From assembly GCF_004795915.1 (NCBI RefSeq), contig NZ_CP039253.1:496001-560000 (forward strand): 64,000 nucleotides of DNA, in the 5' to 3' direction. Of this stretch, positions 33,040-37,312 are shown piece after piece (the first letter of the stretch is position 1; every line of letters starts with the position of its first letter). The notes under the pieces are model-generated. The model was not told the origin of the DNA. It made no database searches and was given only the letters and a program-made list of their open reading frames with translations. A program made the position numbers and the translations under genes. The stretch is from Rhodococcus sp. PAMC28707. GTDB lineage: Bacteria; Actinomycetota; Actinomycetes; Mycobacteriales; Mycobacteriaceae.

Positions 33040-34056
<1,017 letters not shown>

Positions 34057-34103: not shown

Positions 34104-34607
34104 CTAGCGCGACGCGGTGATCGATTTCGGTCCACGTCCGACGGCAACGACTCCCGACTGGACTATTTCTCGAATTCCATAGGGGTCCAACATCTTGAGC
34201 AACGCATCGAGTTTCGACCTCGTACCCGTTGCTTCGACCGTGACCGCCTCGGGCGACACGTCGATAACCTTGGCGCGGAACAGGTTCACGGTCTCGATGA
34301 CTTCGCTACGCACGCTCGAATCGGCTCGAACCTTGATCAGGACCAGTTCGCGGGCCACCGAAGAATCGTCGTCCTGCTCGACGATCTTGATGACGTTGAT
34401 GAGCTTGTTCAGCTGCTTGGTCACCTGTTCCAGCGGGAACTCGTCGACAGTGACCACGATCGTCATCCGCGAGATCTCGGGGATCTCCGTCCCACCTACG
34501 GCGAGCGAGGAGATGTTGAATCCGCGTCGCGAGAACAATGCCGCGACTCGGGCGAGGACGCCTGGCTTGTCCTCGACGAGAACGCTGAGGGTGTGGCTCG
34601 TGCTCAC
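34104..34607 (-). CDS. ilvN: Acetolactate synthase small (regulatory) subunit
   Basis: A 167-residue regulatory subunit. Its N-terminal ACT domain ([28 protein letters not shown]) binds valine for feedback control of IlvB, and the C-terminal half is typical of the family. Its start overlaps the ilvB stop by four bases (34604-34607), so the subunits are translationally coupled, as expected for a complex. Confidence 0.98.
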
Positions 34608-36553
34608 TTGTCGGTGCCTTTCGCTTCGCCGTGCGCCTGCTCGCGTGCCATAGCTTCTTCGATCACGGCAGGCTCGGCGCCCGTTGCCTCGTCATCGTCG
34701 AACAATGGCCGAATTCCGCGGGCAGCCATGATCTCGTCGTTTCCGGTGCCTGCTGCGACCATCGGCCACACCTGCGCGTCGGCACCGACGATGAAGTCGA
34801 TGACAACCGGACGGTCGTTGATCGCACGAGCCTGAGCGATGACGTCCTCGACATCCTCTTCTCGCTCGCACCGCAGTCCGACACACCCGAGCGCTTCGGC
34901 GAGCATGACGAAGTCCGGGATGCGCTTGGCGCCGTGCGTACCCAGGTTCGTGTTGGAGTACCGCTCCTCGTAGAACAAGGTCTGCCACTGTCGCACCATG
35001 CCCAGGTTGCCGTTGTTGATCACAGCAACCTTGATGGGGATACCTTCGACTGCGCAGGTAGCGAGTTCCTGATTGGTCATCTGGAAGCAGCCGTCACCGT
35101 CGATCGCCCACACCTCGGCGTCGGGTAATCCCATCTTGGCGCCCATCGCGGCGGGCACCGCGTAACCCATGGTTCCGAGTCCGCCCGAGTTCAGCCACGT
35201 GCGCGGCTTCTCGTACTTGATGAACTGGGCGGCCCACATCTGATGCTGGCCCACTCCCGCGCAGTAGATCGCATCCGGTCCGGCGATTCTACCGACCGAG
35301 GAGATCACGAATTCCGGCGACATCGCACCGTCGGTCGGACGGTCGTAGCTCAACGGGTAGGTGTTGCGGATGTCATCGAGATAGACCCACCAGTCCGCGA
35401 GATCGAGCGTCGTTCCGGTGGCTCGGTCCGCGCGGATGGCCTCGATGAGTTCGGTGATGACCTCTTTGCAGTCACCCACGATCGGGACGTCCGCGTAGCG
35501 GTTCTTACCGATCTCGGCCGGATCGATGTCGGCGTGGATGACCTTGGCATTGGTGGCGAACGTGGACAACTGCCCGGTGACGCGGTCGTCGAAGCGCGCG
35601 CCGAGAGTGATGAGTAGATCACTGCGCTGCAGCGCAGCGACCGCAGCGACTGTCCCGTGCATTCCGGGCATGCCGAGATTGAGCTGATGGCTGTCCGGGA
35701 ACGCTCCCCTGGCCATGAGCGTCGTGACGACGGGTATCCCGGTCAGCTCGGCGAGCTCGAGCAGTTCGGCGGAGCTGTTGGACTTGATGACGCCGCCGCC
35801 GACGTAGAGGACCGGCTGCTTGGCATCGGCGATGAAGCGCGCCGCCTCGCGAACCTGCTTCCCGTGCGGCTTGGTGACCGGTCGGTAGCCGGGCAGACGC
35901 ATCTCCGGCGGCCACGAGAAGGTGGTCTGCGCCTGGAGCACATCTTTCGGGATATCGACGAGCACAGCACCGGGACGCCCCGAGGCAGCGAGGTAGAACG
36001 CCTCGGCCATGATGCGCGGGATATCGGCGCCGTCGGTGATCAGGAAGTTGTGCTTGGTCACCGGCATCGTGATGCCCGAGATGTCGGCTTCCTGGAAACC
36101 ATCGGTACCGATGAGCGATCGGGCGACCTGACCGGTGATCGCAACGATCGGAACCGAGTCCATCTGAGCGTCGGCGAGCGGAGTGACAAGGTTGGTCGCT
36201 CCAGGACCGGACGTCGCCATGCATACGCCGACACGGCCGGTGGCTTGCGCGTATCCGGTCGCGGCATGTCCGGCGCCTTGCTCATGGCGAACCAGAACGT
36301 GTCGAACCTTCTTCGAATCGAAGAGTGGGTCGTAGACGGGAAGTACTGCTCCTCCCGGAATGCCGAACACGGTGTCGACATCGAGTTCTTCGAGCGCTCG
36401 GACGACGGACTGTGCGCCGGTCACTTTCTCGGGCGCTACATGACGACGTGATCCGTCATTGGAGCCGGCCGTCGGCGTTTCGGACGTCGACGAGCTGTTG
36501 ACTGTGCCCGACTTACGAGTCGTGGGCCCTGGGCGTGCGGTTGGTGCGCTCAC
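34604..36553 (-). CDS. ilvB: Acetolactate synthase large (catalytic) subunit
   Basis: A thiamine-diphosphate enzyme that condenses pyruvate with pyruvate or 2-oxobutyrate. The catalytic glutamate lies in [16 protein letters not shown], and the ThDP motif is [32 protein letters not shown] place the start at the GTG at 36553 (649 residues): it has GAGGAAG five bases upstream and gives an [10 protein letters not shown]-terminus like other actinobacterial IlvB proteins. The frame stays open upstream to 36757, but that stretch holds a transcription terminator and a separate leader peptide, so it should not be counted as protein. First gene of ilvBNC. Confidence 0.97.
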
Positions 36554-36599
36554 TGCTGCTTCCTCAGGATTTTCGAGTTCTGGGCGATCTCTGGGCAAG

Positions 36600-36633
36600 A
36601 AAAAACCCCCGTCAGCAGTAGCTGTACGAGGGT
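36600..36633 (-). terminator. Attenuator terminator in the ilvBNC leader
   Basis: On the minus strand ACCCTCGT-A-CAGC-TACT-GCTG-ACGGGGGT forms a 12-base-pair hairpin with one bulged A and one T-G wobble, followed at once by six Ts. It lies 30 bases after the leader-peptide stop and 46 bases before the ilvB start. A strong terminator upstream of the structural genes is the mark of attenuation. Confidence 0.85.
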
Positions 36634-36663
36634 GGCGCGTCGATGCGAGTTTGAACAACCGGC

Positions 36664-36711
36664 TCAGGCGTTGACGCGCCGGCCGATTACGAGTATCCAA
36701 TTCCGCTTCAC
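36664..36711 (-). CDS. ilvL: ilvBNC leader peptide
   Basis: A 15-codon frame starting at GTG reads [15 protein letters not shown] and then TGA. It contains consecutive Ile-Leu-Val-Ile plus a later Val, the three amino acids whose supply the ilv genes control. A ribosome starved of any of them should stall here. The stop codon lies inside a potential hairpin (CCGGC...GCCGG). GGCGCGTC within the frame (36673-36680) is exactly complementary to GACGCGCC (36634-36641), which abuts the terminator, so alternative foldings exist. The GTG lies seven bases after a -10 element, so it may be translated from a leaderless message. An ilvBNC leader peptide is known in Corynebacterium glutamicum; this one differs in sequence. 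Confidence 0.8.
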
Positions 36712-36718
36712 GTGCTCG

Positions 36719-36748
36719 ACGGTAGGCGCGCGCATAGGGAAGAGTCAA
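36719..36748 (-). promoter_or_regulatory. Candidate ilvBNC promoter
   Basis: On the minus strand TTGACT (36748-36743) and TACCGT (36724-36719) are 18 bases apart, near consensus for actinobacteria. Transcription would begin at about 36711-36712, the first base of the leader-peptide GTG. It lies in the region shared with the divergent PH-domain gene. Confidence 0.6.
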
Positions 36749-36808
36749 ACTCGTCACGACGCAATCCCATTATGTGAGATCGCGCAGTTGCAATGCGAGG
36801 ATGAAGGG

Positions 36809-37312
36809 GTGTCATCCTCACAGCAGTCCGAACCACCGGACTCATCATCCCACACCCCCGATCCGTCTCCGCAGGTCATCCGACTCCCCAAGCTCGCGTT
36901 GGTGGGCGTTGTCCTTCTTCTGTTCGGCGTGTCGTTCCCGGCAGCGAGTTGGCCCGCCGTGTTCGGCTGGCTGTTCCTCGTTCCCGTGGCGGTCGCCATC
37001 TGGGTTCTCCGAGTCCGCACGACCGTCAGCGAGCAGGGCCTCGCAGTGCGTCGGATCGTGGGTTCGGAGTTCATCGAATGGGACCGAGTTCGAGGAATTC
37101 ACTTCCCCGACCGTCGCTGGGCCCGCGTTGTCCTGACCGACAAGACCGAGAAGTCACTACCCCTCGTCCGGTTCGATCGACTACCCCAGTTGGCGGCCGC
37201 AAGCGGTGGACGAATCACCGACCCCTACGCCTCGGCCCGAGCCGACGCCGCGCAAGATGCCGAACATCCCGACGAGGCCCCGGAGATCGCTCCAGAGACA
37301 GACCCTTCCTAG
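36809..37312 (+). CDS. PH-domain membrane protein (CFP6-like)
   Basis: A 167-residue protein with a hydrophilic Ser/Pro-rich N-terminus (about 25 residues) and two membrane segments at about 27-44 and 49-67. A small bacterial PH-like domain follows (TVSEQGLAVRRIVGSEFIEWDRVRGIHF...RWARVVLTDKTEKSLPLVRF), with an acidic tail. The gene divergent from ilvB in M. tuberculosis (Rv3004, low-molecular-weight antigen CFP-6) has the same form. The function is unknown. The GTG at 36809 follows GAGGA. The upstream in-frame sequence lies inside the ilvB control region and was rejected. Confidence 0.8.
   Translation: MSSSQQSEPPDSSSHTPDPSPQVIRLPKLALVGVVLLLFGVSFPAASWPAVFGWLFLVPVAVAIWVLRVRTTVSEQGLAVRRIVGSEFIEWDRVRGIHFPDRRWARVVLTDKTEKSLPLVRFDRLPQLAAASGGRITDPYASARADAAQDAEHPDEAPEIAPETDPS

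Follow-up and report, generated by a model that had tools for sequence, protein, structure and literature searches.

The sequence ahead of ilvBNC in the window (the whole 64,000-nt stretch of Rhodococcus DNA analysed) is highly likely to be a ribosome-mediated transcription attenuator, orthologous to the IlvL attenuator of Corynebacterium glutamicum and the ilvB1 attenuator of Mycobacterium tuberculosis. A tiny peptide gene very probably lets the ribosome sense Ile, Leu and Val and switch the operon accordingly. The original prediction of a leader-peptide attenuator at this locus was upheld by comparison: the uORF with its sensor codons and its distance from the -10 box was conserved in the family, as were the terminator and the long-range helix, and the RNA parts carried compensatory changes.

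The ilvBNC leader of the window and its proposed operation

The elements of the locus are listed in the direction of transcription, with the basis of the assignment in brackets:

36765..36776, minus strand: operator-like block CACATAATGGGA, located 65 nt ahead of the start of the leader (motif near-matches in the family)
36743..36748, minus strand: -35 element TTGACT, with an 18-nt spacer to the -10 element (read from sequence; TTGAC kept in the genus and family loci displayed)
36719..36724, minus strand: -10 element TACCGT, ending 7 nt before the leader GTG
36664..36711, minus strand: putative leader peptide uORF, GTG start 36711-36709, UGA stop 36666-36664 (sequence and comparison)
36696-36685, minus strand: putative sensor codons AUA CUC GUA AUC in the leader uORF (sequence and comparison)
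36682..36688, minus strand: predicted hairpin H1 (anti-antiterminator), 5' arm AAUCGGC (swap test)
36673..36680, minus strand: predicted antiterminator H2, 5' arm GGCGCGUC, within the RRV codons (geometry, swap, covariation and inverted-repeat search)
36657..36663, minus strand: predicted hairpin H1, 3' arm GCCGGUU, directly past the stop codon (swap test)
36634..36641, minus strand: predicted antiterminator H2, 3' arm GACGCGCC, ending 1 nt ahead of the terminator CCCUCG (geometry, swap, covariation and inverted-repeat search)
36605..36633, minus strand: predicted intrinsic terminator hairpin H3, a 12-bp stem carrying a single bulged A (folding, covariation)
36600..36605, minus strand: run of six T, predicted 3' end of the short transcript (sequence)
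36559..36565, minus strand: Shine-Dalgarno-like GAGGAAG of ilvB, 5 nt before the ilvB GTG at 36553-36551 (sequence)
34604..36553, minus strand: ilvB, acetolactate synthase large subunit (NCBIfam NF005860, 1154.7 bits)
34104..34607, minus strand: ilvN, acetolactate synthase small subunit (NCBIfam NF008864)
33040..34053, minus strand: ilvC, ketol-acid reductoisomerase (NCBIfam NF004017)

The promoter hexamers with the GTG seven bases on, the Ile-Leu-Val-Ile run, the TGA, the helix, the terminator with its six Ts, and the GAGGAAG with the ilvB GTG had all been claimed beforehand and were present on the minus strand at the places listed. The UGA, which had been placed within a potential hairpin, lies between the two arms of H1, and the complementarity claimed next to the terminator is that of 36680-36673 with GACGCGCC. 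As in IlvL-type leaders, a short uORF with consecutive Ile, Leu and Val codons stands ahead of ilvB, and an intrinsic terminator lies between the two. The H2 helix was also recovered by a blind inverted-repeat search, with 13-nt arms at 36634-36646 and 36668-36680 that were 85% complementary. The window leader was no more stable than shuffled sequences (z -0.83), and both its promoter and its terminator were missed by a simple consensus scan, presumably owing to the imperfect hexamers and the bulge in the stem; the case therefore rests on comparison.

In the seven window ORFs counted (four of them identified genes), the sensor codon GTA makes up 7.5% of the Val codons and the sensor codon ATA 4% of the Ile codons. 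An upstream in-frame ATG at 36735 was rejected as the leader start because it sits between the promoter hexamers and is missing in four of the related loci (L012, L013, L020 and L030). The CTCGTA common to the sensor codons and the terminator was likewise dropped as a conserved repeat, the terminator also having CTCGAA and CTCGCA. The divergent ilvD lies upstream. Between ilvB and ilvD a further divergent ORF (36632-37312, plus strand) encodes a bacterial PH domain (PF10756), and translation of it probably starts a good way inside the ORF as delimited here.

In the proposed mechanism the RNA would start at or next to the GTG at 36711-36709, with leaderless translation of the uORF. H1 would be formed by the IG codons paired with the RNA past the stop codon. 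With charged Ile, Leu and Val tRNAs plentiful, the ribosome would reach the stop codon and cover the 5' arm of H2, so that H3 could form and transcription would end near 36600. With one of the charged tRNAs in short supply the ribosome would stall at AUA-CUC-GUA-AUC, whereupon the 5' arm of H2 would emerge just past its leading edge and pair with the arm abutting the terminator; H3 would then be disfavoured and ilvBNC transcribed. The weakest point of this scheme is the way in which H2 would block H3, because the two helices hardly overlap.

Conservation, ribosome geometry and RNA pairing

A match to ilvB was obtained in all 37 genus genomes searched, and 36 of the loci were read. ATACTCGTAATC was present in 30 of these and CTCGTAATC in all 36, the other six keeping CTCGTAATC with a changed first sensor codon (CTC in three, TTC in two, TTG in one). 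The alignment across Rhodococcus that had been proposed as a check kept the sensor codons, CTC-GTA-ATC in 36/36 and the leading ATA in 30/36. The 30 best-matching genus loci were near-identical from the -35 box through the T run, with ATA-CTC-GTA-ATC invariant, and in one species (L020) the GTG start of the leader was replaced by ATG. At the level of sequence comparison, this genus-wide conservation of the sensor confirmed that the leader in the window is more than a chance observation.

The family set comprised 109 ilvB loci (the 30 genus loci plus 20 and 59 further ones), taken from the matches listed and not at random. With a rule that required TANNNT 6–9 nt before an RTG, a leader uORF was found in 106 of the 109 loci read and in 23 of the 24 genera read (the family search covered 31 genera), the distance from the -10 box to the RTG being 7 nt in 92 leaders, 8 nt in 10 and 6 nt in four. 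The codons CTC-GTA were kept in 105/106 leaders, and the start codon was GTG in 95 and ATG in 11. The rule was unmet at three of the 109 loci (L077, L082 and L104): L077 retained both H2 arms with a degenerate sensor, and L104, the sole ilvB locus of genus g3 (presumably Corynebacterium) read in this set, had no such leader. A terminator pattern matched in 16 of the 101 genomes of g3, but the letters matched resembled an ilvB terminator in L245 and L249 alone; L245 was read.

The same promoter-leader arrangement was found, among the matches listed in a pattern scan, in named records of Mycobacterium, Mycolicibacterium, Mycobacteroides and Gordonia. These named ilvB loci were obtained with the pattern CTCGTAGTAAT, and in 116 of the 121 mycobacterial and Gordonia matches listed TANNNT preceded the chosen start by 7–9 nt; of the five without it, L130, L182 and L216 were in other contexts and L196 and L206 were at the edge of the locus. 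A promoter-start-sensor pattern with a permitted gap of 4–14 nt from the -10 box to the RTG matched in 228 of the 297 genomes of genus g29, which is Mycobacterium to judge by its named relatives; a few of the listed matches were off-target.

The leading edge of a ribosome lies 10 nt beyond the A-site codon in E. coli footprints, and this value was applied in the geometry test. With a ribosome positioned at the first of the sensor codons, three quarters or more of the H2 arm was exposed in 218 of 219 ilvB leaders and in 70 of the 76 scored cimA leaders (see below), a set in which an Ile was required and starts with a -10 box were preferred. With the ribosome on the stop codon, at least half of the arm was masked in all 144 short-tail ilvB leaders and at least three quarters in all 76 cimA leaders. 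The remaining 75 of the 219 ilvB leaders were mycobacterial long-tail leaders, in which, with one exception, a stop-bound ribosome masked neither H2 arm by half because the stop is too far downstream. In long-tail leaders (e.g., L096 and L098) the uORF runs past the usual stop, and a GCGCG-CGCGC hairpin lies inside the ORF in 73 of the 75; this hairpin could sequester the same H2 arm. By this measure a stalled ribosome would leave the antiterminator exposed and one at the stop codon would mask it, with the long-tail relatives excepted on masking.

Covariation was scored on 71 leaders, retained from the 219 ilvB leaders after near-duplicates were dropped. The proportion of paired cells was 85.9% overall versus 82.6% in shuffled alignments, and the covariation score was higher than in any of the 500 shuffles or the six slid registers. 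Paired cells reached 96.1% in the terminator H3 (two two-sided pairs), 87.9% in H2 (four) and 62.1% in H1 in the MAFFT register (five). Two-sided changes included the H2 pairs 54-129 (CG/UG/UA) and 56-127 (AU/UA/GC/CG) and the terminator pair 145-163. The count of further pair types was unremarkable, being reached by 33 of the 500 shuffles, and the count of 11 two-sided pairs was matched by the -1 register. When own arms were compared with swapped ones, none of 500 swaps equalled H1 (42 distinct arm pairs from 54 of the 71 leaders, those with the stop close behind the arm); the corresponding figures were 0/2000 for the inner extension of H2 and 9/2000 for its outer part, where the signal was weaker. 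This wide alignment supports H1 and H2 separately as putative elements of the leader.

In all 218 leaders scored, H2 ended within -3 to +2 nt of the C that opens the terminator stem; the partner arm was sought up to 8 nt inside the stem, and for one leader, L048, no helix was obtained. In the window H2 stops 1 nt short of the terminator CCC, and all that is left is a possible GG:CC pair across an internal loop. L115, L127, L141 and similar mycobacterial loci have a 17-bp H2 that overlaps the terminator CCC by 2–3 nt, and a 17-bp helix that extends into the CCC is present in some Mycolicibacterium. In RNAfold predictions with the 5' arm exposed, H2 coexisted with H3 in 7 of the 7 leaders folded, so that equilibrium energies do not make the two exclusive; with both hairpins retained in the folds, a kinetic or steric block is the probable one.

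Alternative explanations and known systems

The CACATAATGGGA block presumably resembles the LtbR/NdgR-type operator motif. With up to two mismatches to CAYATARTGRGA, such a block was present at -85 to -60 in 79 of the 106 family loci and 20 of the 23 leader-bearing genera (absent from g13, g28 and g29), and the reversed motif gave 0/106. This would fit a constitutive premature terminator behind a fortuitous uORF, with the real control exerted at the promoter by an IclR-type regulator bound to the block, and sensor-codon changes in S. coelicolor ilvB reported to be without effect (PMC1262725) point in the same direction. Codon-level conservation, the covariation of H2 and the geometry argue against such a scheme, as does g29, which keeps the leader yet has no block, making it very unlikely. 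Promoter control may nevertheless act beside the attenuator, both layers coexisting. Still less probable is direct sensing of a ligand or a tRNA by the RNA, through a T-box or a riboswitch for ppGpp or a metabolite, the uORF then being incidental. The leader is indeed structured and conserved, and ppGpp riboswitches control ilvB in some Firmicutes (PMC10272879), but neither the window leader (E up to 1) nor nine related loci (E up to 0.1) matched any Rfam family, riboswitches and T-boxes included, the conservation follows codons, with GTG exchanged for ATG at the start in the proportion given above, and the sensor residues vary with the gene served. Binding of ppGpp was tested and not seen for the C. 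ulcerans RNA (PMC10272879).

Attenuation through ilvB translation or Rho, instead of through an intrinsic hairpin, has a parallel in the mycobacterial cysteine leaders without obvious terminators (PMC1262725). It is the least probable of the alternatives, given the conserved and highly paired 12-bp hairpin with U6 in the family, and the abundant short transcript that ends inside the M. tuberculosis ilvB1 leader, where removal of the terminator matters (PMC13236596). Ribosome-mediated transcription attenuation remains the preferred reading.

Attenuation of ilvB in C. glutamicum and M. tuberculosis and the leaderless IlvL of S. lividans are covered together by PMC1262725, PMC10272879, PMC11857589, PMC13236596, PMC4633059, PMC4974804, PMC11133741 and PMC8079986. 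The attenuation of ilvBNC in C. glutamicum, to which the original prediction had referred, is described by a three-hairpin model (PMC11857589), and the window leader shares with it a 15-residue uORF with branched-chain amino acid codons and a predicted anti-antiterminator, antiterminator and terminator; the predicted transcription start at or next to the leader start codon would agree as well. Its peptide does differ in sequence from that of C. glutamicum, as predicted. Leaderless translation, which had been proposed as a further peculiarity, is no departure, because transcription in C. glutamicum starts one nt from the leader ATG (PMC11857589) and S. lividans IlvL is reported as a leaderless transcript (PMC8079986). 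In C. glutamicum the valine codons and the start codon matter (earlier work cited in PMC11857589), and the study gives a similar low-barrier picture in which a GCC triplet is shared by antiterminator and terminator, unlike H2 of the window with its end one nt before CCC. The terminator 5' arm CCCUCG is common to the window and the g3 relative L245 (presumably Corynebacterium).

The M. tuberculosis ilvB1 attenuator likewise has a branched-chain amino acid uORF and an intrinsic terminator ahead of the same operon; its sensor is LVVI by the published description, versus ILVI in the window, and the change of LVVI to AAAA abolishes induction (PMC13236596). S. lividans IlvL (MRTRILVLGKRVG) shares the LV-x-GxRV pattern but, unlike the window peptide, has 13 residues (PMC8079986). 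The ilvB-II motif, an ilvB leader with uORF and terminator, is also similar and was defined on Corynebacterium only (PMC10272879). Judged from its sequence, the window attenuator is an ordinary, very well conserved member of the known IlvL type. Leaderless polycysteine attenuators of mycobacteria were reportedly described by Canestrari in 2020; they have a leaderless sensor uORF of the kind proposed here, but one that senses cysteine. They have been described as translation attenuation (PMC13236596).

A probable wider actinobacterial family and its cimA branch

When the search was widened beyond the family, R1, a covariance model built on ilvB leaders, had matches in 110 of the 200 order genomes (the window's own family accounting for 30) and in 116 of the 246 class genomes, where some coincided with cimA-type matches. 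In other families of the order the ilvB uORF was as short as 8–10 codons (VAQLLVIS, VRMLLVIV), and in five such leaders (L296, L297, L299, L302 and L317) the stop ran into the antiterminator arm (TAGCGCG).

Some R1 matches stood ahead of cimA instead of ilvB and had isoleucine sensors; cimA encodes citramalate synthase, the enzyme with which the citramalate route to isoleucine begins. TIGR00977 was the best family for the four downstream fragments tested, with scores below the cut-off because the fragments were cut; a TIGR00977 match above the cut-off was present in 150 of the 200 genomes of the order. In many actinobacterial families cimA is thus preceded by the architecture of the ilvB leader, with a putative sensor for isoleucine. 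The loci behind this observation were:

L291, L306, L308, L311, L315, L320-L369, L370-L399 and L411-L430: cimA loci, except L422 and L424, which are ilvB

At 50 loci found via the cimA protein, a rule that required one Ile and favoured starts with a -10 box identified a leader at 34, and five further leaders were visible by eye. A stricter detector called 29 of the 50, one apparently spurious, against 1/50 on the reverse strand and 3, 4 and 4 of 50 in shuffled sequences. With no residue rule (only -10 spacing, stop position and helix) a uORF was called at 22 of the 50 loci, and it contained Ile in 22 and Ile-Ile in 21. A second covariance model, R2, built on cimA leaders and with covariation in H2, matched in 171 of the 246 class genomes, representing 84 of 103 genera. 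Among 50 R2 matches whose downstream DNA was read, 48 preceded cimA (three by eye) and two preceded ilvB. When the 50 protein-found regions were combined with 47 regions found by R2, a model trained on Ile leaders, geometry called 45 of the 97 (genome G612 included twice) and none of the 97 on the reverse strand; these 45 leaders contained Ile in 45, Ile-Ile in 44 and Leu-Val or Val-Leu in five. Of 81 cimA leaders, 60 had a [TC]ANNNT box 6–9 nt ahead of the start selected and 21 had none; in this set starts with a -10 box were preferred, and Ile was present in 81/81 by construction, because the rule required it. No leader was found at the cimA loci of family f4 (4/4) or at several of those of f2 and f9, and the window's own genome gave no R2 match and only a weak cimA family match (2.0e-15).

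The sensor tracks the downstream gene, with Leu-Val plus for ilvB and Ile-Ile for cimA. These leaders quite probably form one class-wide leaderless attenuator family, in which a change of sensor codons would re-address a single RNA switch, to ilvB with Leu-Val plus and to cimA with Ile-Ile(-Ile), the latter in uORFs as short as eight codons; the shared switch would consist of a GCGCG arm over or next to the stop and a partner arm flush with the terminator. The cimA branch appears undescribed: no cimA attenuator was found among the open-licence papers searched, nor in the S. lividans passages of PMC8079986, where cimA does not occur, and no paper had a Rhodococcus ilvB leader in its title, both absences being provisional because the search covered open-licence literature only.

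Through this leader the genus of the window joins a control system that has been tied to the drug vulnerability of the tuberculosis bacterium (PMC13236596) and, in Corynebacterium, to the production of valine (PMC11857589). H1 and H2, which according to the C. glutamicum study a comparison within Corynebacterium could not tell apart (PMC11857589), each gain support of their own from the wide alignment, and the cimA branch amounts to a natural codon-swap experiment, in which the switch is unchanged and the sensor and the gene are different. Interest attaches to this wide alignment and to the isoleucine-sensing cimA branch.
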